A DNA stretch of 60,601 nucleotides from an uncultured Verrucomicrobia subdivision 3 bacterium (GTDB lineage Bacteria; Verrucomicrobiota; Verrucomicrobiia; Limisphaerales; UBA11358), in NCBI GenBank assembly GCA_903827955.1, contig CAIKKJ010000206.1, positions 1-60,601 on the forward strand, given 5' to 3'. The translations under genes and the position numbers were made by a program. Within the stretch, counting starts at the first letter, position 1. The number at the start of each line of letters is the position of its first letter. This document shows positions 587 through 60,601 of the stretch, piece after piece. The notes under the pieces are model-generated. The model searched no databases. It was not told the origin of the DNA and worked only from the letters and a program-made list of their open reading frames with translations.

Positions 587-3500
587 TCAGTGACCGCCCT
601 TGACATTTTCTTCAAACGCAGCCATGACCGCCTCGTCGCCGGTCAAACCTTGCGACTGCACTTTTTTGAGTGACAGCAATACGCGTTTGTAATCTTGCGG
701 CATGACTTTGACGAATTTTGGAATGAAGTCTTTCCAGTTCGCCAGCATGTTCGCCGCGCGCTGGCACTGGGTGTAAGTCTGGTAGCGCTGAATCAATTTC
801 CAGACTTCTTCAATCTCGTTGGCATCCTCCAATTTTTCCAACCCAACGAGTTCCATGTTGCAGCGCGTGTGAAAATCGCCCGCCTCGTCCAAGACATAGG
901 CCACACCACCGCTCATGCCGGCGGCGAAATTGCGTCCGGTCTTGCCGAGAATCACGACGCGTCCGCCGGTCATGTATTCGCAGCCGTGATCGCCCACGCC
1001 TTCGACGACGGCGTTGACGCCGGAGTTGCGGACGGCGAAGCGTTCACCGGCCATGCCGCAGACAAAAATTTCTCCGGCGGTCGCGCCGTAAAGCGCCACA
1101 TTGCCGATGATAATGTTATCCTGCGAAGCAAAGGTTGAACCCTTTGGCGGATAGACAATAAGTTTGCCGCCGCTCAAGCCTTTGCCGAAGTAATCATTCG
1201 CATCGCCTTCAAGTTCGTGCGTCATTCCCTTCGGCATGAAAGCGCCAAAACTTTGTCCAGCACTGCCGTTGAACTTCAGGTGCACCGTGTCTTCCGGCAA
1301 GCCGGCGGGGCCGTGCTTCTTCGTGATTTCACTCCCAACGATGGTGCCGACCACCCGGTTCACGTTGATGATCGGCAGTTCGGCCTTCACCTTTTCGCCG
1401 CGTTCGATGGCGGGTTTGCAAATATCGAGCAGCTTGGTCACGTCGAGCGATTTTTCCAAACCATGATCCTGATTCTCGGAGCGGAAGCGTCCGATTTCCG
1501 GGCCGACATTGGGTTGGTGCAAAATCGGCGAGATGTCGAGGCCGTTCGCCTTCCAATGTTCAATCGCCTTCCACGGAATCAATTTATCCGTGCGACCAAC
1601 CATGTCTTCCAATTTGCGGAAGCCAAGCTTGGCCATGATCTCGCGCAGTTCCATCGCAATGAAACGCATGAAATTCACGACGTGATCCGCCTCGCCGGTG
1701 AACCGCTTGCGGAGGCGCGGATCTTGCGTGGCGACGCCGACGGGGCAGGTGTTCAGGTGACAAACGCGCATCATGATGCAACCCATCACGACGAGCGGTG
1801 CGGTGGCAAAACCAAATTCTTCCGCGCCGAGCAGTGCGGCCACGGCCACATCGCGGCCGGTTTTCAACTGGCCGTCGGTCTCGACGTAGATGCGACTGCG
1901 CAGGCCGTTCAACACGAGTGTCTGGTGCGCCTCGGCCAGGCCGAGTTCCCACGGGCCACCCGCGTGCTTGATCGACGAGAGCGGCGACGCGCCCGTGCCG
2001 CCGTCGTGGCCGGATATCAAAACGACATCCGCGTGCGCCTTGGCGACGCCCGCCGCGACCGTGCCGACGCCGACTTCGGCGACGAGTTTGACGCTGACGC
2101 GCGCGTTGCGGTTGGCGTTTTTTAAGTCGTGGATCAGCTCCGCCAAATCCTCAATGGAATAAATGTCGTGATGCGGCGGCGGTGAAATCAAACCGACACC
2201 GGCAGTCGTGCCGCGCGTTTTGGCGATGTCCGGGAAAACTTTTTTACCGGGCAACTCGCCGCCTTCGCCGGGCTTCGCGCCCTGCGCCATCTTAATCTGG
2301 ATTTCTTTCGCGTTGACGAGGTAATGGCTCGTCACACCGAAGCGGCCGGAAGCGACCTGCTTGATGGCAGAATTTTTTGAGTCGCCGCGTTCGTTGGTCC
2401 AGATATAGCGCTCTGGATCTTCGCCACCTTCGCCGGTGTTGCTGCGACCGCCAAGGCGGTTCATGGCAATGGCGAGGGTCTCGTGCGCTTCCTTGGAAAT
2501 GGAGCCGTAACTCATCGCGCCGGTCTTGAAACGCTTCACGAGGCTTTCTACGGATTCAACTTCTTCAATCGGAATCGCCGTTTCCGCAAACTTGAAATCC
2601 AGCAAACCGCGCAAGGTGCAAAGTGTTTTGGCGCGGTCGTTGATGAGGTCGGCGTATTCGCGATAAATTTTTTCACTGCCGAGGCGGCAGGCCGTCTGCA
2701 GTTTGTGAATCGTCTGCGGATTGAACAGATGCTGTTCGCCGCCGTCGCGCCACTGATATTGGCCGCCCGCTTCGAGTTCCGGATTGACCGCGACCGGCGG
2801 GAACGCGCGGCGATGGCGGGCGACCGCTTCTTGGGCGATGACGTCGAGGCCGATGCCTTGGATGCGGGTGGGCGTCCAGGTGAAATATTTTTCCACGACG
2901 TCGCTGTTCACGCCGACGGCTTCAAAGATTTGCGCGCCACGATAACTTTGCACCGTGGAGATGCCCATCTTGGCCATGGTCTTGACAACGCCTTTGATGG
3001 CAGCCTTGATGAATTTTTTCACGCCGGTCTTGTGGTCCATGCCGGGCAACAAACCTTCGTGGATCAAATCATCAATCGTTTCGTAGGCGAGATACGGATT
3101 GATGGCGCTGCAGCCGTAGCCGATGAGCAGGGCGAAATGATGCACCTCGCGCGGTTCGCCGGATTCCAGCACGAGGCCGGTTTTACCGCGCGTGCCAACG
3201 CGGATGAGATGGTGATGTAAACCCGCCGTGGCGAGCAATGCGGGAATCGGCGCCATTTCCGGGGAGATTCCCCGGTCGGACAAAATCAAAATGTTTGCGC
3301 CGTCCTTGATGGCCTTGTCGGCGTCGGCAAAAACTTTTTCCAGGGCAGCTTCGAGTCCTTTCGCGCCGTCAGCAGCCTTGAACAAAATGGAAAGAGTTTC
3401 CGATTTGAAACCGGGGCGGCTGATGAAACGCAGCTTGTCCAGTTCCTCATTCGTGAGAATCGGCTGTTCGAGCCGGATGAGCGCGCAGCTTTCCGGTCCG

Positions 3501-10330: not shown

Positions 10331-10939
10331 TTAAAGCTCGCAAAATTCCGCCAGTGCTGACCGTGTTTTCTCTGGCGTTTCGTGCAAAATCGCCCGCCAG
10401 CCGCGCGCCGCGCCTGCCTCGATGTTTTCCAGCCGATCATCAATGTAGATCAAATCCGCGCCGCGCTGGCCGCACATTTTTTCCATCGCGGAATAAATTT
10501 CCGGCTGCGGTTTCATAGCGCCGACTTCGTAGGAAAAAATATAGCCGTCAAAGTTTTGGAAGAACGGAAAATTCCGGCGGACGTGTTCGATGGCGAGGTC
10601 GTTGGTGTTGGAAAAAATGTAGGTCTTGAACCCGCGCCGCCGCAGTTCGGAATGCAAAGCAATTGTGTCCGTCATCTCGGAAAAAATGTCCGCGAAATAG
10701 CTGCTAAATTCCTTCAGGTCACCCTGAAAGCCAACGCCGTCGCGGATGACTTCAAAAAATTTCTGGCGTGTGATTCGACCTGATTCGTAGTCCCAAAGCA
10801 AAGCAGATTCGCCGAGATAGGCGGCTAAATGGTGCGGTGGCCGCGTGGAGCGCGTTGCAATTTTTCCGGCGGCGCGCGACCAATCAAAATCCACCAGCAC
10901 TTTGCCGAGGTCGAAGATGAAGACCGGAGAATTGTTCAC
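10331..10939 (-). CDS. HAD-superfamily hydrolase, YihX-like
   Basis: A 202-residue haloacid dehalogenase-like phosphatase, probably cytoplasmic with a small sugar-phosphate or nucleotide substrate (not predictable). Motif I is FDLGKVLVDFD: the nucleophile Asp is present, and Gly replaces the usual second Asp, as in YihX. Motif II is IFSNTND. The motif III lysine is in GAMKPQPEIY and the motif IV acids are in YIDDRLENI. The helical cap lies at about residues 20-90. The start is a GTG at 10939 that overlaps the recR stop by 4 bp (GTGA), which indicates translational coupling. Confidence 0.85.
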   Translation of the reverse strand: MNNSPVFIFDLGKVLVDFDWSRAAGKIATRSTRPPHHLAAYLGESALLWDYESGRITRQKFFEVIRDGVGFQGDLKEFSSYFADIFSEMTDTIALHSELRRRGFKTYIFSNTNDLAIEHVRRNFPFFQNFDGYIFSYEVGAMKPQPEIYSAMEKMCGQRGADLIYIDDRLENIEAGAARGWRAILHETPEKTRSALAEFCEL

Positions 10940-11535
10940 AACATTTCCCGGCGGCCTTCGAGCGCGCGGTTGAGCGTAAGTTCATCGGCAAATTCCAAGC
11001 CGCTGCCGGCGGGCAAACCGAAGCCGATGCGGGAAATTTTCAGCCCGCCGCGCGCGAGCCGCTTTGCGAGGTAGTTGCTCGTGGCGTCGCCTTCCACATC
11101 CGTGCCGAGCGCGATAATGATTTCCCGGACGGGTTCAGCGGTCAGGCGTTTTTCCAGTTCGCCGATGCGCAGATCATCCGGCTCCACGCCGTCGAGCGGG
11201 GAAATTTTTCCGCCGAGCACATGGAACTTGCCGCGAAACGAACCTGATTTTTCGATGCTCAAAATGTCCACTGCGCGTTCCACCACGCAAAGAATCGAAG
11301 CGTCTCGCCGCGCATCGTCGCAGGTGGAGCAGGGGGATTTTTCCGTGAGCGCGCCGCAGGTCGTGCAGAAACCAATTTTTTCGCGCGCCACCAAAATGGC
11401 GTCCGCCAGTTGTGTGACGATGGCGGAATCTGTCTGCACCAGATGCAGCGCCACGCGCTCAGCGGAACGTGGTCCGACGCCGGGCAGCTTGGCCAGCGCG
11501 GTGGTCAGGGTGACGATGGGTTCGGGCAATGGCAT
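10936..11535 (-). CDS. recR: Recombination mediator protein RecR
   Basis: RecR loads RecA on gaps together with RecO/RecF. The 199 residues from the ATG at 11535 match the family. There is an N-terminal helix-hairpin-helix (LAKLPGVGPRSAERVALHL), a zinc knuckle CTTCGALTEKSPCSTC, then a Toprim domain with VVERAVDILSIEKS and HVLGGKISPLDGV. The frame is open 11 codons further upstream, but that extension would run into a double-hairpin repeat (11540-11590), so I place the start at MPLPEPIVTL. It lies between ybaB and the HAD gene in one transcription unit. Confidence 0.95.
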   Translation of the reverse strand: MPLPEPIVTLTTALAKLPGVGPRSAERVALHLVQTDSAIVTQLADAILVAREKIGFCTTCGALTEKSPCSTCDDARRDASILCVVERAVDILSIEKSGSFRGKFHVLGGKISPLDGVEPDDLRIGELEKRLTAEPVREIIIALGTDVEGDATSNYLAKRLARGGLKISRIGFGLPAGSGLEFADELTLNRALEGRREML

Positions 11536-11539
11536 TTTT

Positions 11540-11590
11540 GTAGCGGCGGTCTGTGACCGCCGAATCACGACGCTCCTAGAGCGCCGCCAC
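11540..11590. repeat. Double-hairpin REP/BIME-like element between recR and ybaB
   Basis: A 51-bp palindromic unit. The outer arms are GTAGCGGCG (11540-11548) and CGCCGCCAC (11582-11590), with one mismatch. Inside are two hairpins, GGCGGTC-TGT-GACCGCC and GACGCTC-CTA-GAGCGCC (one mismatch). It fills almost exactly the space between the ybaB stop (11594) and the recR start (11535). A unit with the same plan occurs in metH at 58377-58424. Confidence 0.75.
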
Positions 11591-11593
11591 CAA

Positions 11594-11902
11594 TCACATC
11601 ATCCCCGGCAGATTGAATCCCTGCGTGGCTTTACCCATTTCGGCATTGGAAATTTCCTTGGCCTGATTGAGTGCTTGGTTCGCCGCGGTGAGAATCATGT
11701 CCTCGACGATTTGCGCGTCAGACGGATTCAGCGCTTGCGGGTCAATTTTAATGGACGCGAGCGAGCCATCGCATTTGGCGGTGACTTTCACCGCTCCGCC
11801 GCCGCTGGTGGCCTCGACCGTGCGAACGGCGAGCTGGGCTTGAATCTGTTCCATTTGCTGCTGCATTTTTGCAGCCTGTTTCATGAGTTTGCCGAGTGAC
11901 AT
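11594..11902 (-). CDS. ybaB: YbaB/EbfC family nucleoid-associated protein
   Basis: A small DNA-binding protein, 102 residues, that forms dimers and coats DNA. The N-terminal helix is rich in Gln and Met (LMKQAAKMQQQMEQIQAQL), followed by the compact beta core (SGGGAVKVTAKCDGSLASI), and the tail ends PGMM. The ATG at 11902 gives the typical start MSLGKLMKQ; the longer frame to 11953 would overlap dnaX. It is flanked by dnaX and recR, the order conserved in most bacteria. Confidence 0.93.
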   Translation of the reverse strand: MSLGKLMKQAAKMQQQMEQIQAQLAVRTVEATSGGGAVKVTAKCDGSLASIKIDPQALNPSDAQIVEDMILTAANQALNQAKEISNAEMGKATQGFNLPGMM

Positions 11903-27011: not shown

Positions 27012-30000
27012 ATGCGTGCCGGAAAAATCAAGGTTCTTGCCGCCGGAATTTTTTTGAGCTTTCTGCTGACCGTCACCGGTGCGGAAGCTGGGCGGACCGG
27101 GCCGCGCGGCCATGTCACCGGTGGGGTTCTGCGCCCGTCAGCGGACCGCTTCGCTTCCACGAATAATCCCGGGCCCGGCGTCGGCATCAACGATAATATC
27201 GTGCAAATCATGGCCCGCGCCCGCGTGAGTGACGCTTCACCGCCCAGGGATCGGCGGTTTATTTCGCACCGGCGCCGCGCCGCGGAACTCGGCGGCGAGG
27301 TGGAATTTCCAATTTTCACCGAAGCAAACACCACCGGCGGCAGCCCGGTCACTTCGTTGCGGGTCGCGCAGCCCGGCCCATTCGGCACCAACGGCACGCC
27401 GCTCGCCTTCACTGGAGCCACACTGCCGGAAACCAGTTCGTATCCGCCGGACACGATGGGTGCGGTCGGGCCGGCGCAGTTCATTGTCGCGGTCAACGGG
27501 CGCATCCGCACTTTCAATAAAAATACCGGCCTCGCCGACGGCGTGCTCAACGCATCCATGGATACGTTCTTCAACTCGGTGATGACGCCGCCGGCGAACA
27601 ACAATTTCACCAGCGACCCGCGCATTCGTTATGATCGGCTTTCGGGCCGATGGTTCGTTATTATCATTGACGTGCCAGGCAAGACCGGAACATCGCCCAA
27701 CCGGGTTTTAATTGCCGTGAGCGATTCTAGCGTGATCACCGCCGGCACGGTCTGGAGCTTTTATTTTTTCCAACACGACCTAGTTTCACCGACGGGGGAT
27801 ACCGGTGAGTTTGCGGATTATCCCACGCTGGGGATTGATGCCAACGCGCTTTATATTGGCGTAAACATCTTCAATGCCACCACAGGCTCATTTGATAACA
27901 CCACGGCATTCGTCGTTCAGAAAAGTTCGCTGCTCACGGGCGGGCCGATTGCGGTCACCGCGTTCCGTCGTCTCATAAGCGGGGTCACGGGGCCATATAC
28001 GCCGCAAGGGGTTGACAATTATGATCCAAACGCCACGGAAGGTTACATCATCGGTGTGGATTTCGGCAGCAGCACGCGTCTGCGTCTCCGGCGCGTCTCC
28101 AATCCAGGGAGTAGCACGCCGACGATCTCGGGAAATGTGAGCATCACCGTTTCTTCCTTTGCCGCTCCTATCGTAGTGCCGAGTTCTGGCACGAGCAGCA
28201 ACTTGGACGGCCTTGATGAACGATTGCTCGCGGCGCATTATCGCAATGGTTCGCTGTGGACTTCCGGAAATGTCGGTGTGAACAGCAGTGGGGGAACTTC
28301 TGCTACCACGCGCAACGGCGTGCGGTGGTATAAAATTGGCGGTATTCCTACCGGCCAGACGCCCAGTGTGCAGCAGTCGGGAACGATCTATGATTCCTCC
28401 AGCACGAACATTTTTTATTGGATGGGCACGGTCATGGTTTCTGGTCAAGGTCACGCGGTGGCAGGTTTCAGCGCCTCCAGCACATCGCAATTTGTCGGTG
28501 CGGCGGTCGCGGGTCGGCTCACGAACGCCGCTGCGGGCACGTTTGGCACGCCCATTATTTATTCTGCCGGTGCCGCCGCTTACAGTCCGCCTTACAATCG
28601 CTGGGGCGATTATTCCTACACCAGCCTCGATCCGAATGACGACATGACCATGTGGACCATTCAGGAAAATGTAAACGCCGCGAATTCCTACGCCGTGCAG
28701 ATCGGAAAATTTTCCGCGCCGCCGCCGGCGTTGCCCATCAGTTGTTCGCCGGCTGTCGTCACGCAGGGCGTCGCCGCCATCAACGTCACGCTGCTGGGTT
28801 CCAGTTCCGGCGGCTTTGGATTTTACGACCCCGGCGCAGGGTTTTCCAACCGGCTGGCCACAGTTGTGAACGGCGGTGGAATCACGTTGAACAGCGTTAC
28901 CTACGTCAACCCCACGAACCTGACGCTGAATCTCACGATAGCCACGAATGCCTTGGACACGGCGCGCACCATTTCTGTCATCAACCCGGATGGCCAGACC
29001 AATACCAGCATCGCCGCCATCCTTACAGTCAACACCAACGGCCAGCCACCTATCATCACCATTCCACCGGTGGCGCAAGCCATTCAATGTGGTAGCAACG
29101 CCACCTTCGCCGTGATCGCCACCGGCACGGCGACGCTGAATTTTCAATGGCGACTGGACAATGTGCCGGTCAGTGGCGCGACCAATGCCACGTTCACCAC
29201 CACGAATGTTCATCTGCCAAGCCACACTGTTGCGGTCGTTATCACCAATTTTTTTGGCAGCGCCAGCAACGCAGTTGCGCTCACCGTTATTGACACACTC
29301 GCACCGGTCATCGCGCTGAACGGCGCGGCACTCCTGAGCAACGAACTTGGTTTACCATTCACCGACCCTGGCGCGACGGCCAATGATCTTTGCGTGGGAG
29401 TTTTATCCGTCACGACGAACGGCGTGGTGAACATAAATCTCGTCGGCACGAACACGCTCACCTACCGCGCCACCGACGGCAACGGCAACACCAACACCGC
29501 CACGCGCACCGTCATCGTGCGCGACACCACGCCGCCGGTGATTGCTTGGAGTTTCACAAATTTAGTTTTGACGGCGAATGCGAGCTGTAGCGCGCTGATG
29601 ACGAATGTGACCGGCACAAATTTCATTCTCGCCACCGATTTGTCCGGCGCGCTCACCATCACGCAGTCACCAACAAACAACGCGCCGCTGTCGCTCGGCA
29701 CGAACCTCATTCTCATCACCGTGGCTGACGCGGCGACGAACAAATCTGTTTCCACCAATCGCATCATCGTGCGCGACCAGACGCCGCCTGTCATCACGCT
29801 CAATGGCGGCGCGCTGCTGACGAACGAATTTGGTGTGGCATTCATTGATCCCGGCGTGACGGCCAGCGATGCGTGCTCGGGGATTTTATCTGTCGTCACG
29901 AATGGTGTGGTGAATGTCAATCTCGCCAGCACGAATACGCTCGCCTACACCGCCACCGATAGCAGCGGCAACACGAACGCCGTCACCCGCATCGTCATTG

Positions 30001-31313
30001 TGCGCGACACCACGCCGCCGGCAATCACCTGGAGCTTCACGAATCTTTTCCTGTCGCTTGACACGAATTGCAGCGCGCTGATGCCGGACGTGACGGGAAC
30101 CAATTTCATCCTCGCGGGCGACTTGTCTGGTGCGGTGGTCATTTCACAGTCGCCGACGAATGGTTTTATTTTGCCGCTTGGAACCAACCTGGTTGTCTTC
30201 GCTGTCGCCGATGATTTTGGCAACACATCGTTCGCAACAAATCAGATTATCGTCCGCGATGCCGCGCCGCCATTCATCCTGATCCAGCCGCAAAGCCAGA
30301 CGAATACTCCGGGCAATTACGCAAGTTTCAGCGTCACGGCCAACGCCTGCACTGCACCGTCGTTCCAATGGTTTTTCAGCGGCGCGGCGCTCGCCAACCA
30401 GACCGGCAATTTCCTTTTGCTTTCCAATCTTAATTTGGCGACGGCAGGAAACTATTCCGTCGTTGTCACGTCGTCCGGCGGTTCTGCAACGAGCACGGTG
30501 GCCGTGTTGACGGTGAACTTGTTTGCCTCGAGTCTCACGCTGGGTGCGTCCGCAAATCCCGATGGCTTCCGCGACAATGTGAATTTTGCCGCCTTTGTAA
30601 CGCCGACGAATGCGACGGGCGCGATCCAGTTTTTCACGAACGGGACGCCGTTTGATTTGCAGCTGCTCGTGAATGGTGCGGCGGCCAGCACGAACTTTTC
30701 CACGTTGCCGCGCGGCACGAATCTCATCGTCGCGATTTATTCAGGCGACCTGAATTATTTGCCCGCCACCAACGCGCTCGCGCAAATCGTCACCAACCAT
30801 CCGCCGGAAATTTCCCCGGCATTTTTCACGCTCATCGCCGGATTGAATTTGAACCTTCCCATCACCAGCCTCGCCACCAACTGGAGCGATGTGGATGGCG
30901 ATGTGCTGTTCATTTCCGCCATCGCCGCCAGCACGAACGGCGTGACGGTGACGAACGCCACGCCGTCATTGTTCTATTTCAATCCTAATTTCGTTGACGA
31001 CCAGTTTGTCTGCACGGTGAGCGACGGGTTTGGCGGGACAAATTTTCAAACCGTGAACATCACCGTCGTGCCGCAGACCAATTCCACGCCGAACATCATC
31101 AGCTTCGTGAGCCAGCCTGCCAGCGGCGTGACGCTCCAACTCAACGGCGGCTACGGCTCGACGTATGTTTTGGAGAGCGTAGCGGATTTGCTCTCCGGCA
31201 ACTGGCAGCCGTTGGCTACGAACACGCTGGGCATCACCGGCGTCTGGCAGTTCACGGACTTTGGCGTGACCAATGACCCCGTGCGATTCTATCGGCTCAA
31301 GCTGCTGCCGTGA
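27012..31313 (+). CDS. Giant secreted modular protein (propeller-like, Ig, DUF5011/HYR repeats, C-terminal FYR module)
   Basis: 1433 residues with a signal peptide (about 1-26). Residues 140-570 form a beta-rich domain (PDTMGAVGPAQFIVAVNGRI, DYPTLGIDANALYIGVN), possibly a propeller. They are followed by an IPT/TIG-like domain (570-675), an Ig domain (677-760), two copies of a DUF5011-plus-HYR pair (762-923 and 924-1084), an Ig domain (1085-1169), a Big_3-like domain (1170-1262), a cadherin-like domain (1263-1353) and a C-terminal module ending FYRLKLLP. No catalytic motif is recognisable. The domains point to surface adhesion or matrix binding (inference). Asn and Thr are very abundant. It is probably cotranscribed with the S53 protease, 23 bp upstream. 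Confidence 0.85.
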   Translation: MRAGKIKVLAAGIFLSFLLTVTGAEAGRTGPRGHVTGGVLRPSADRFASTNNPGPGVGINDNIVQIMARARVSDASPPRDRRFISHRRRAAELGGEVEFPIFTEANTTGGSPVTSLRVAQPGPFGTNGTPLAFTGATLPETSSYPPDTMGAVGPAQFIVAVNGRIRTFNKNTGLADGVLNASMDTFFNSVMTPPANNNFTSDPRIRYDRLSGRWFVIIIDVPGKTGTSPNRVLIAVSDSSVITAGTVWSFYFFQHDLVSPTGDTGEFADYPTLGIDANALYIGVNIFNATTGSFDNTTAFVVQKSSLLTGGPIAVTAFRRLISGVTGPYTPQGVDNYDPNATEGYIIGVDFGSSTRLRLRRVSNPGSSTPTISGNVSITVSSFAAPIVVPSSGTSSNLDGLDERLLAAHYRNGSLWTSGNVGVNSSGGTSATTRNGVRWYKIGGIPTGQTPSVQQSGTIYDSSSTNIFYWMGTVMVSGQGHAVAGFSASSTSQFVGAAVAGRLTNAAAGTFGTPIIYSAGAAAYSPPYNRWGDYSYTSLDPNDDMTMWTIQENVNAANSYAVQIGKFSAPPPALPISCSPAVVTQGVAAINVTLLGSSSGGFGFYDPGAGFSNRLATVVNGGGITLNSVTYVNPTNLTLNLTIATNALDTARTISVINPDGQTNTSIAAILTVNTNGQPPIITIPPVAQAIQCGSNATFAVIATGTATLNFQWRLDNVPVSGATNATFTTTNVHLPSHTVAVVITNFFGSASNAVALTVIDTLAPVIALNGAALLSNELGLPFTDPGATANDLCVGVLSVTTNGVVNINLVGTNTLTYRATDGNGNTNTATRTVIVRDTTPPVIAWSFTNLVLTANASCSALMTNVTGTNFILATDLSGALTITQSPTNNAPLSLGTNLILITVADAATNKSVSTNRIIVRDQTPPVITLNGGALLTNEFGVAFIDPGVTASDACSGILSVVTNGVVNVNLASTNTLAYTATDSSGNTNAVTRIVIVRDTTPPAITWSFTNLFLSLDTNCSALMPDVTGTNFILAGDLSGAVVISQSPTNGFILPLGTNLVVFAVADDFGNTSFATNQIIVRDAAPPFILIQPQSQTNTPGNYASFSVTANACTAPSFQWFFSGAALANQTGNFLLLSNLNLATAGNYSVVVTSSGGSATSTVAVLTVNLFASSLTLGASANPDGFRDNVNFAAFVTPTNATGAIQFFTNGTPFDLQLLVNGAAASTNFSTLPRGTNLIVAIYSGDLNYLPATNALAQIVTNHPPEISPAFFTLIAGLNLNLPITSLATNWSDVDGDVLFISAIAASTNGVTVTNATPSLFYFNPNFVDDQFVCTVSDGFGGTNFQTVNITVVPQTNSTPNIISFVSQPASGVTLQLNGGYGSTYVLESVADLLSGNWQPLATNTLGITGVWQFTDFGVTNDPVRFYRLKLLP
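29295..30263 (+). repeat. Tandem duplication of a 162-residue DUF5011-HYR unit
   Basis: Codons 762-923 and 924-1084 of the giant protein are two copies of the same unit. Both share ALNG or TLNG, GALL-NE-G, NGVVN, TNTL-Y-ATD, RDTTPP, TGTNFILA-DLSGA and SPTN at equal spacing. A third start (APPFIL) is followed by a different Ig domain. Confidence 0.85.
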
Positions 31314-56434: not shown

Positions 56435-57862
56435 TTAAACCGCCTTTGCTGGTAATTTTTTCTGCTGCATCAAAATCATCGCGCCCGTCCACAGCAGCCA
56501 GATGAGGCTTAACGTCGTCACGCCCCAATCGCGTAGGAGAGGTCCGACGCCCGGCATCCGCGCCAGCAAATCTGCCAGCATGAAAAAAGCGACGGGCAGG
56601 AGCAGTTTCCAGTTCGGTGCAGAGGATGGCGACTGCGGCACTCCCAAATCAACCAGCGCCGCCACCAGCGGCAGCAGGAGCAGGTAATAAAAATTATGCA
56701 CGACGGGATTGATGAGCAGCGCGAGACCAATCAGCAATCCGGCGATTATGAATAATTGATGGGGCGTATCGCTCCGCCGCCAGCCGATGACGAAGAGCAC
56801 ACCGGCAATCATCACCGTGCCGACGGCATAAACTGCGTTGCGTTCCCACGCGGCGGCTTCCACCGGCCGCTGGCCGCGTGGCTGTGATCGGTTTGTCCAG
56901 TTGTGAATGGCCGCGAGCAGCGACTGGTTGTCCGTGCTGCCCATGCCGGTGAGTTCGCTTTGGCGCGACGTGTCCGTGCCATGGCCGAGTGCGGGCTTGG
57001 CGAGGACTTCAATCCAGCACTGGTAAAGTTCCTTTGTGCGTTGCGGCCCCAGCGTGGCGACAGGCAGTGCGGCGAGCAAAATGAATAGCCCGGCAATGAC
57101 GCCAAAACCCATGCGCCATTGCCGACGCAGAAACGGATACGCCAGCAGGAATGGTGGAAATAATTTGATCGTCGCCGGCAATGCGAAGCACAGCCCGGCA
57201 CGAAAATTTTTATTCGTGACTGCCAAAAAAATCCCAAAAGAAATCGCGGTCAGCATCACGATGTCCGCCTGGCCGCGCGACAGATCCGTGCCTGACGAAC
57301 CGGTCAGCACCGCGAGTGGCAGCAGTCGTCGCCACCACCAGCGGCGGCGCGCGGTGGAATCTTCCGGTGGCGGAGAGCGCAACGTTTTTCCTTCCAGCGC
57401 GCAGCCGAGCGTGTGCGCGGAAAAAATGATTCCCAGCACGCTCAACAAATACCACGCGGCCACAGAAAAAAAGAAATGCGCGTTCTCGGCGTGCAGCGGG
57501 TAAAAATTATTTCCATCCACGCCGTAGCCCCACGGCGTGTTGGCGGCTGTGCGTTTTTCGCCGGGCGGCAACGTCAGCGGCGGCAGTGGAACCGGTTCGG
57601 CCAGCGGCAACAACACAATGGCCAGCGCGGGCGGATACTGGTAATGCCAGCCGTGCCAGTCGGGAATCGAATAGGGGTTTTGTCCGCTCCAGACCGCGCC
57701 GGACGCGATGCAAAAAACACCGAGGTCGGTCATCGGCGAGTGGCGCAGCGCCGTGCGTCGTTCGAGCAGGCAACCGAAAGCAGCGAGCACAACAAGCGCA
57801 ACCGTCAGCCAGATTTTTTCCGCACGATAAAAGCGCCAGCGATGTTCGATGGCGGGATTCAT
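56435..57862 (-). CDS. GT87-family (DUF2029) membrane glycosyltransferase
   Basis: A polytopic glycosyltransferase, 475 residues, likely using a polyprenyl-phosphate sugar (family knowledge: mycobacterial mannosyltransferases). Start ATG 57862 ([19 protein letters not shown]). The first extracytoplasmic loop has [20 protein letters not shown] and [20 protein letters not shown], with the Asp and YPP motif typical of GT-C enzymes. About ten helices. The ATG overlaps the metH stop by four bases (ATGA). Upstream codons to 58030 are out of frame with metH and are rejected. Confidence 0.86.
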
Positions 57863-60601
57863 GACGGGTTGTAATTCAGCCAAGGCCCCAGCCAGCGTTC
57901 CATTTCGGTAGCGGTTTTGCCTTTGCGCTTGGCTAGATCTTCCACCTGATCTTTGCCGAGTTTTCCGACGGCGAAATATTTTGACTCCGGATGCGCGAAG
58001 TAAAGGCCGCTCACACTGCTGCCGGGCCACATCGCAAAACTTTCCGTGAGTTTGATGCCGGTGTGTTTTTCTACGTCGAGCAAGTCCCAGAGAATTTCTT
58101 TCTCCGTATGATCCGGCGACGCGGGGTAGCCGGCGGCGGGACGGATGCCGCGATATTTTCCTTCAATCAAATCGGCGGTTGTCAGCTTTTCCAATTTGCC
58201 AAAACCCCATTCGTCACGGACGCGCTTGTGCAAACACTCGGCGAACGCTTCCGCCAACCGGTCGGCAATCGCTTCGGCAAGAATCGCGTTGTAGTCGTCG
58301 TGTTCAGCTTTGAACTTCTCGACAATTTCTTTCAAGCCATGTCCACTCGTGACGGCAAAGCCGCCGATGTAATCTTGTAGCGCAGCCGTCTTGGCTGCGG
58401 CGGCAGGCGAGACGCCTGCGCTACTCTTTGGCGCAACAAAATCCGCCAGGCAATAGTTCGGCGTGCCGTCGCCTTTTTTAATTTGCTGACGAAGAAAATG
58501 GAATTTTGTCCGCAAATGTTTGCGCGAGCCGTTCGTATAGACTTCCACATCGTCGCCGACGGCGTTCGCGGGGAACAGGCCATAGACGGCTTGGAGTTTC
58601 AGCGATTTGTTCGCGACGAATTCCGCGAGCATTTTTTGCGCGTCGGCGAAAAGTTTGGTCGCTTCTTCGCCATGTTTTTCATGTGTGAGAATTTTCGGAT
58701 ACACGCCGCGCAGTTCCCATGTGTGAAAGAACGGTGTCCAGTCAATGAACGCAGCGACTTCCTCGATGGAAATGCTGAACGCTCCGGCGTGTCCGTGCGA
58801 TGAGCCGCAGCCGCATTTGCCGGGGTTGAATTCGCCGGACGAAAGCGTGCGGATGCCAGTGAATTCCGGCTTGGGCAGATCCTCGTATTTCAGCTTCGGC
58901 GCGTTGGCGCGCGCGGCGGCGAGCGAAAGTAGTTTTACTGCCGAGCCGGCGTGTTGCGTGCGGAGTTTCTCGTAGTCTTCGCGCAGGTGTTTTACGAACG
59001 CGGCCTTGCCGTCCTTGCTCAAGAGGCTGCTCGTCACCGGCACGGCGCGCGAGGCGTCGAGGACGTGGACGACGGGTTCGCTGTAATGCTGCGCCACTTT
59101 GACCGCAGTGTGCGCCCGGCTGGTCGTCGCGCCGCCGATGAGCAGCGGGACTTTGAAGCCCTGCCGTTCCATCTCGCGGGCGACGTGGACCATCTCGTCC
59201 AGCGACGGCGTGATGAGTCCGCTCAAGCCGATGATGTCAGCTTTCTCCAGCTTAGCGCGCTCCAGAATTTTTTCGCACGGCACCATCACGCCCATGTCGA
59301 TGACCTCGTAGTTATTGCAGGCCAGCACGACGCCGACAATGTTCTTGCCGATGTCATGCACGTCGCCTTTGACAGTCGCGAGGACGATTTTCCCCTGCGC
59401 CTTGACGACCTCGCCGCGCGCGACCATGGCGGCTTTCTCCGCCTCCATGAACGGCGTGAGATACGCGACGGATTTTTTCATCACGCGCGCAGACTTCACG
59501 ACTTGTGGCAAAAACATTTTGCCCGCGCCGAACAAATCGCCGACGACGCTCATGCCGGCCATCAACGGACCTTCGATGACGGTGAGCGGCTTGCCGTATT
59601 TCGCGAGCGCTTCCGCGGTGTCGGCATCCACATAGAGATCAATCCCCTTAACGAGCGAGTGCGAAAGGCGTTCCTCTACCGTGCCTTTGCGCCATTCTTC
59701 CTCGACCATTTTGTCGGTCGCGGTTGTGCCGGCGCTGGCGGCTTTGAGTTTTTCGCCGTGCACAACGAGACGTTCGGTCGCGTCCGGACGGCGGTTGAGC
59801 AACACGTCTTCGACGAGTTCTTTCAACTCCGGTTCGATCTCTTCGTAAACTTCCAACATGCCGGCGTTGACGATGGCCATGTCCATGCCGGCTTTGATGG
59901 CGTGGAATAGAAACGCACTGTGCATCGCTTCGCGCACGGGATTGTTGCCGCGGAAACTGAACGAGACGTTCGATAACCCGCCGCTGACTTTCGCGTGCGG
60001 CAGGTTCGCTTTGATCCAGCGCGTGGCTTCGATGAAGTCCACGGCGTAGTTGTTGTGCTCCTCGATGCCTGTGCCCACGGTGAGGATGTTCGGGTCGAAA
60101 ATGATGTCCTCGGGCGGAAAGCCGACTTCGTCCACGAGAATTTTGTAGGCGCGTTCGCAGATGCGAATCTTCTCCGCATACGTCGCGGCTTGGCCGTTTT
60201 CGTCAAACGCCATCACCACGACCGCTGCGCCGTATTTCAAAACTTTGCGCGCGTGTTCACGGAATAATTCCTCGCCGCCCTTGAGCGAAATGGAATTCAC
60301 GATGCCTTTGCCTTGGACGCATTTCAGGCCAGCTTCGATGACTTCCCACTTCGAGGAGTCCACCATGAACGGAACTTTGGCGACCTCGGGTTCGCTGCCG
60401 AGGAGTTGCAGATAGCGCGTCATCGCCGCGACGCCGTCAATCATCCCTTCGTCCATGCAGATGTCGATGATGTTCGCACCGTTCTCAACCTGCTGGCGCG
60501 CGATGGCCACGGCTTCCTCGTATTTATTTTCCTTGATCAGCTTGGCGAACTTGGGCGAGCCCGCGACATTCGTGCGCTCGCCGATCATGATGAACGAGCC
60601 A
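57859..60601 (-). CDS. metH: Cobalamin-dependent methionine synthase, C-terminal three quarters (runs off window)
   Basis: Transfers a methyl group from 5-methyl-THF by cobalamin to homocysteine. About 913 codons are visible; the homocysteine domain lies beyond the right edge. The pterin domain is at the visible start ([50 protein letters not shown]). The cobalamin domain has [20 protein letters not shown] with the axial His, and [14 protein letters not shown]. The AdoMet activation domain has [16 protein letters not shown]. Odd point: between CLADFVAPK and DYIGGFAVT there is an extra segment [17 protein letters not shown], encoded by a 48-bp double-hairpin repeat; E. coli MetH has only a few residues there. 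Confidence 0.96.
58377..58424. repeat. Double-hairpin REP/BIME-like element inserted in frame in metH
   Basis: A 48-bp unit. Outer arms are GTAGCGCAG (58377-58385) and CTGCGCTAC (58416-58424). The inner hairpins are CGCAGCC-GTCTT-GGCTGCG and GGCAGGCG-AGA-CGCCTGC. The length is a multiple of three and the metH frame stays open through it. It follows the same plan as the 11540-11590 element. Confidence 0.85.

Follow-up and report, generated by a model that had tools for sequence, protein, structure and literature searches.

The stretch of DNA analysed here (the window; 60,601 nucleotides from an uncultured Verrucomicrobia subdivision 3 bacterium) carries the genes ybaB/ebfC (positions 11594 to 11902; profile TIGR00103, YbaB/EbfC) and recR (positions 10936 to 11535; profile TIGR00615, RecR), both on the minus strand. 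The ybaB stop codon (11594) and the recR ATG (11535) are separated by 58 bases, 51 of which belong to a palindrome at positions 11540 to 11590. A sequence-only reading had described this palindrome as a 51-bp double hairpin, with competing outer arms and inner hairpins, that nearly fills the gap between the two genes. That description is accurate: the sequence and coordinates are exact when checked against the letters of the window, and the computed folds agree.

The palindrome has the layout of a REPIN, in which two GTAG-tagged REPs are arranged head to head, and its halves represent two subtypes of a REP family that we call REP-A. The alpha unit (GTAGCGGCGGTCTGTGACCGCCG, positions 11540 to 11562, plus strand) consists of a GTAG tag, an 8-bp stem, and a 3-nt loop. 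It is identical to the family consensus and scores 40.6 bits with the covariance model described below. A 5-nt spacer, AATCA (11563 to 11567), joins it to the beta unit (11568 to 11590, minus strand), which is the reverse complement of GTGGCGGCGCTCTAGGAGCGTCG and has the tag GTGG and a GGCGCTC-type stem. This second unit is decayed and scores 30.9 bits. Both tags face outward, such that the REPIN ends in GTAG on one side and GTGG on the other.

On the mRNA strand, three nucleotides lie between the ybaB stop codon and the hairpin, and four between the hairpin and the recR ATG. The recR reading frame is open upward across one REP unit to a GTG codon within the REPIN. Full pairing of the outer arms is possible only on this strand, wherein an A-C mismatch of the plus strand is read as a G-U pair, and the second inner hairpin includes one such pair as well. 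The minus strand folds as RNA with a free energy of −32.4 kcal/mol (z −4.8; none of 200 shuffles as good). When the plus strand is folded with DNA parameters, two separate hairpins are favoured (−15.8 kcal/mol, z −3.7). The left 23-nt unit has one match within the window at up to three mismatches, where 0.00 are expected from 100 shuffles. An Rfam scan of the window at the gathering score returns a tRNA and a small SRP RNA only, leaving the palindrome unmatched. Elsewhere in the window, a coding stretch at positions 29304 to 30277 contains repeats of 483 bases that are tandem-like and about 75% identical.

REP-A units occur as pairs throughout the genome

The genome assembly to which the window belongs comprises 3.86 Mb in 213 contigs and is 95% complete. 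A search with the left 23-mer yields 15 matches at up to three mismatches, compared with none for the reversed pattern. We built a 23-nt covariance model (R1) solely from 19 REP-A units and used it to score 150 of 3026 first-look candidates, a sampling by which weak copies may be missed. Among the candidates scored, 24 clear REPs were recovered at E ≤0.08, and beyond these the score falls to 22 bits or less, with the next match at E 1.6. Judged by position, every one of the 24 REPs belongs to one of 12 head-to-head pairs and none stands alone, again among the candidates scored. Thus the further copies foreseen from the sequence alone do exist. Spacers within the pairs measure 4 to 26 nt, except for one of 152. 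The GTAG tag is kept by most of the 24 units, and the base preceding it is T at 20 of the 24 ends. Besides the ybaB-recR copy, which is extragenic, REP-A is present at 11 further places, in other genes, and at least 2 of the 12 copies lie in frame within a gene. One of these pairs is inside valS (L003, positions 1474 to 1523) and the other is at the activation loop of a Ser/Thr kinase gene (L008, positions 1456 to 1523).

The alpha and beta subtypes are distinguished by one swapped base pair at stem position 10:18, where 10 of the 19 model units have G-C and 8 have C-G. Heterodimers of the two subtypes make up 10 of the 12 pairs; of the remaining two, one is alpha/alpha-like and in the other this base pair is broken. 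Stem positions are paired in 94.1% of cases versus 86.0% in shuffles (a level that none of 500 shuffles attains), and only three stem pairs show a change on both sides, a number that 23 of 500 shuffles reach. Hence REP-A does show genuine covariation, most of which is due to the two subtypes. The earlier proposal had offered either compensatory change or a family of subtypes, and it is the subtypes at 10:18 that the data support, rather than many independent compensations. Shuffle expectation, fold z-scores, copy number, and covariance model matches together rule out a chance palindrome. We regard REP-A as a new REPIN family of a known kind, judged against the descriptions of published GTAG families, one of which it may equal.

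A REPIN of another family lies inside metH

The sequence-only reading had also pointed to an element of the same architecture, with the same GTAGCG ends, near metH. This element is indeed present, at positions 58377 to 58424 (48 bp), with GTAGCG at both of its ends. It is not intergenic, as had been assumed, and instead lies in frame inside metH (57859 to 60588, minus strand; TIGR02082; cut by the end of the window), where it codes for about 16 residues. Its REPs are of the GTAGCGCAGGC type, another GTAG family, and the genome contains no second pair of this type at up to three mismatches. The metH REPIN resembles the REPs found around the RAYT genes of two loci in relatives (L075 and L078), and REP-A has RAYT genes of its own in other relatives (L074, L094, and L096), such that each family has its own RAYT type. 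The two REPINs are therefore the same kind of element from separate REP families, and the notion that they are copies of one element fails. A covariance model proves workable when based on the 19 REP-A units, but the recR and metH elements are not one covarying element, and a joint model of the two would be wrong, since they represent two different families.

REP-A pairs are present or absent at given sites

The in-frame copy in valS permits a comparison with sites in relatives. Twelve genomes were searched with ValS, 10 loci were compared, and 9 could be aligned (L280 and L281 were left out). The REP-A pair is absent from eight of the nine aligned relatives; the ninth carries an insert that differs from it and is longer. 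This contrast is one between species, and neither excision nor insertion was observed as an event. The net insert in valS measures 69 bases (23 codons) versus 50 for the REPIN, which indicates that extra bases came with the REPIN or after it. The valS gene of G013 (L278) carries another, longer insert at this site, with CCCTCACCCCGGCCCTCTCCC-like hairpin arms. Separately, residues at about 470 to 550 of the ValS carrying the REPIN seemingly constitute a second extra stretch, since in several relatives the match to this ValS is interrupted from residue 468 to residues 544 to 553.

We examined 59 genomes, from the same genus and from other families of the order, for REP-A. Units with up to two mismatches are found in 32 of the 59 genomes and in 8 of 24 genera; the reversed controls gave 0 matches each. 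Scanning a large collection of genomes for exact matches identified at least 117 stretches with a REP-A unit. The 80 titled matches listed are mostly from Verrucomicrobia, with some from Acidobacteria and a few from others, and they include the isolate Chthoniobacter flavus Ellin428. Among the exact sites listed that have enough flank and come from named genomes, 82 of 117 are accompanied, at a distance of up to 90 bp, by an inverted partner placed head to head, compared with 35 of 2300 random places. The partner at these 82 paired sites is of the beta type in 42 cases and alpha in 40, and thus the excess of heterodimers is a trait of the genome studied here rather than a general one.

Cognate RAYT genes are found in relatives

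The sequence-only reading had named a REP-associated tyrosine transposase (RAYT) as a possible mover in trans and had advised a search for its gene. A search of 15 genomes with profile NF047646 returned matches in 14. RAYT genes bracketed by exact REP-A units are present in three relatives, at L074 (G025), L094 (G021), and L096 (G015), with those of L074 and L094 exceeding the profile cut-off. In two of these loci (L094, positions 1720 to 1775; L096, positions 1709 to 1766), REP-A units are located inside the RAYT frame, in the portion that separates the HUH motif from the tyrosine part. Close matches to the REP-A RAYTs were confined to these three genomes among 36 of the genus searched. Many-copy genomes such as G022 and G010 revealed no cognate RAYT among the loci examined. 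The fact that most genomes with REP-A have no recognisable cognate RAYT counts against active movement in them.

The genome studied here has five NF047646 matches (on contigs C151, C152, C118, C211, and C191), of which those on C151 and C152 exceed the cut-off, that on C118 is inside alaS, and that on C191 is an IS200-like gene. The RAYT on C211 is nearest to the REP-A RAYTs by sequence, at 38% identity. The gene on C151 is bracketed by GGAG-type REPs, that on C152 is near GTAGGGACAG-type REPs, and the flanks of C211 hold no REPs of the tagged kind. None of these three groups with the REP-A RAYTs in a phylogenetic tree, and none of the five matches falls near them. We therefore consider these resident RAYTs unsupported as movers of REP-A, given that their flanking REPs differ and the tree places none with the REP-A RAYTs. 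The expectation of a RAYT gene thus holds in that the genome has RAYTs and its relatives have cognate ones, but profile search, sequence search, and tree revealed none of the cognate clade in the genome itself.

In the same tree the REP-A RAYTs do not form one supported clade, and L074 sits beside a long-branch row. RAYTs of different families with like REPs cluster, as seen for L075 with L078 and for L076 with L079 and L120. At least two GTAG or GGAG palindromes accompany 27 of 41 RAYT loci, as counted by hand with no random control.

We also noticed RAYT-like Y1_Tnp (PF01797) domains situated in frame inside AlaS, PriA, DnaE, ClpB, and a DinG-like helicase, with Pfam domains of the host protein on both sides. 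Such domains occur in AlaS in the genome studied here and in relatives, at more than one site. The example from our genome spans positions 3332 to 5554 of L122 (G000, contig C118), where the domain is nested in AlaS. Further loci are L132 (2428 to 5766), L130 (3635 to 6526), L286 (1193 to 5599), and L289 (481 to 3546), as well as L283, L293, L294, L295, L284, L131, L282, L287, L290, L291, and L292. Two others, L288 (PriA) and L121 (AlaS), are alike by motif with PF01797 below the limit, and in L285 the Y1_Tnp domain follows the AlaS SAD domain in a frame at a contig end. Our literature searches found no report of RAYT domains nested in housekeeping genes, and these domains may be more surprising than the ybaB-recR REPIN itself.

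The ybaB-recR junction is occupied by different hairpins across the genus

The gap between ybaB and recR was compared in 34 of 35 genomes with RecR (G016, a partial match, was left out). Because gene starts were placed by comparison with the proteins encoded in the window, the gap lengths may be wrong by a few codons. The gap is 5 to 9 bp in 4 genomes, 37 bp in 1, and 50 to 110 bp in 29. When folded, 21 of 30 gaps have a z-score of −2 or below. None of 30 dnaX-ybaB gaps, located just upstream, do so. The recR-HAD gap is at most 11 bp in 14 of 31 genomes, and when it is long, 9 of 16 fold with z ≤−2.

REP-A itself occupies the ybaB-recR gap in only 2 of the 34 genomes, the one studied here and G030, whose copy is decayed (47 to 48 of 58 positions alike) and has the same end, CTACAAAA, before the ATG. 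The sole other tagged pair (1 of 34) is the GGAG-type pair in G023 (L124), which is like the pair around the RAYT of L073. Most other gaps hold hairpins of at least four unrelated makes, as grouped by eye, and the two nearest genomes (G035 and G013) have other hairpins there. No clean empty site for the recR copy was found in a close relative (G035, G013, and G030 were compared). These sequences indicate a junction that was originally short and has been filled repeatedly by insertion.

Long imperfect hairpins with quasi-repetitive arms fill the ybaB-recR and recR-HAD gaps of L044 to L072 and L123. Their arms are GAATGATGAA-, CCTCGTC-, AATTAAAA-, or GTTAAATCG-like, and they are without a GTAG tag. 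Hairpins of these four types were also considered as possible RAYT ends, and inspection by eye of 11 plus 41 RAYT loci revealed none in this position.

Discussion

REP-A doublets are dispersed, are present or absent at given sites, and have a cognate RAYT in relatives. We conclude that the ybaB-recR palindrome is a REPIN, a non-autonomous mobile element composed of two inverted GTAG-tagged REPs, and we assign this reading a probability of about 90%. The earlier suggestion of a subtype family mobilised in trans is therefore the best reading, given the RAYTs flanked by REP-A in relatives. The transposase that most likely dispersed REP-A persists in some of the relatives.

The location of the hairpin, 3 nt from the ybaB stop codon and no more than 4 nt from the recR start, would also suit a conserved cis-acting RNA structure that has been selected at this site to regulate recR, such as an attenuator, a riboswitch-like element, or a translational coupler. 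The hairpin is strong, and some hairpin is found in the gap of most relatives, with 21 of 30 folded gaps at z ≤−2. A conserved regulator is nonetheless very improbable, because the sequence at the site is not conserved. The junction has been refilled repeatedly with mostly unrelated hairpins, REP-A and the other tagged pair account for only 2 and 1 of the 34 genomes, and four genomes manage with 5 to 9 bp. Moreover, the same REP is found at the 11 further places in other genes, and there is no match to an Rfam family. A G+C-rich hairpin after a stop codon likewise brings to mind an intrinsic transcription terminator, yet the scan for terminators at the palindrome found neither a terminator-like site nor, on either strand, a T run following the stem, and we give this explanation almost no credence.

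A third possibility is that hairpins arrive by chance and that any hairpin, regardless of sequence, is then retained by selection for tuning or coupling the translation of ybaB and recR. The predominance of gaps of 50 to 110 nt (29 of 34), mostly holding hairpins, together with the unfolded dnaX-ybaB gap (0 of 30), fits this proposal. However, long recR-HAD gaps are filled with hairpins as well (9 of 16), which suggests that filling is general, and the dnaX-ybaB gap may simply be protected by signals that are needed there. Retention of interchangeable hairpins thus seems improbable, if somewhat less so than a conserved regulator. Comparison of relatives offers a direct test of whether these insertions are neutral or have been retained because they affect the downstream gene.

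Under the mobile-element reading, a RAYT acting in trans would cut and join a single-stranded REP pair at the GTAG tags, as outlined for known REPINs (PMC3116915, PMC8266576), probably on the lagging-strand template. In this way a copy would have entered the ybaB-recR junction, which at first measured only about 7 bp. Since no RAYT of the cognate clade was found in the genome studied here, either its copies are probably no longer moving or the gene lies in the part that the assembly lacks. Within the ybaB-recR mRNA, the REPIN would be bound to form a strong hairpin reaching from 3 nt past the stop codon to 4 nt before the start codon. When located near a stop codon, REPs can slow ribosomes or shield the mRNA. 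Stabilising or splitting of the mRNA, as proposed from the sequence alone, would be a putative role here; no terminator-like T run follows the hairpin, and in relatives this gap is empty or taken by unrelated hairpins. We infer that the effect here would be small and tolerated, since the hairpin folds out the added length and keeps stop and start close together.

More tentatively, the REPINs and RAYTs of this order might constitute a mobile system that is compatible with coding. REPINs are open in several frames and could settle in frame, as in metH, in valS, and at the kinase activation loop; RAYTs read through their flanking REPs; RAYT domains are found in essential genes (alaS, priA, dnaE, and clpB); and the recR copy can give RecR an alternative N terminus starting from the GTG. 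We consider this broader proposal rather doubtful. If the in-frame copies are functional, they would illustrate the way in which small mobile elements are tolerated by essential genes.

The closest parallels are provided by the REPINs of Pseudomonas fluorescens SBW25, which, as outlined by Bertels and Rainey in 2011 (PMC3116915), consist like REP-A of two inverted REPs and a spacer that form one long hairpin or two, and in which the doublet is likewise the basic unit. According to the same account, each SBW25 REPIN type has one RAYT type. The SBW25 elements described there differ in their stems and in number, with hundreds of copies compared with 12 for REP-A, which has no singleton. Unlike in that description, alpha/beta heterodimers prevail in the genome studied here and no cognate RAYT was found in it. 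The GTAG-tagged REP families, as summarised by Di Nocera in 2013 (PMC3733652), share with REP-A a GTAG placed directly before a stem of 6 to 9 bp with a loop of 2 to 3 nt, and they also form head-to-head dimers and heterodimers with different stems. That summary counts 24 families, with members in Verrucomicrobia (Opitutus terrae) and also inside genes.

Among RAYT classes, the descriptions of TnpA-REP subclass 2.5, or group 3 (PMC6006769, PMC8266576), come nearest to what we observe, with short perfect palindromes and RAYTs that carry DHLH or DHIH, WQ, and a YxxxNP-like motif. The location of REPs within the RAYT frame in L094 and L096 corresponds to a feature given in PMC6006769 as unique to subclass 2.4, a likeness that is by motif and description. 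As presented in PMC6006769 and PMC8266576, group 3 is known mainly from Pseudomonas and Xanthomonads. The genus examined here adds to these systems one operon junction that has been filled again and again by different hairpin elements, and a well-defined REPIN family, with its subtypes and cognate RAYT, that is placed in a poorly studied group.
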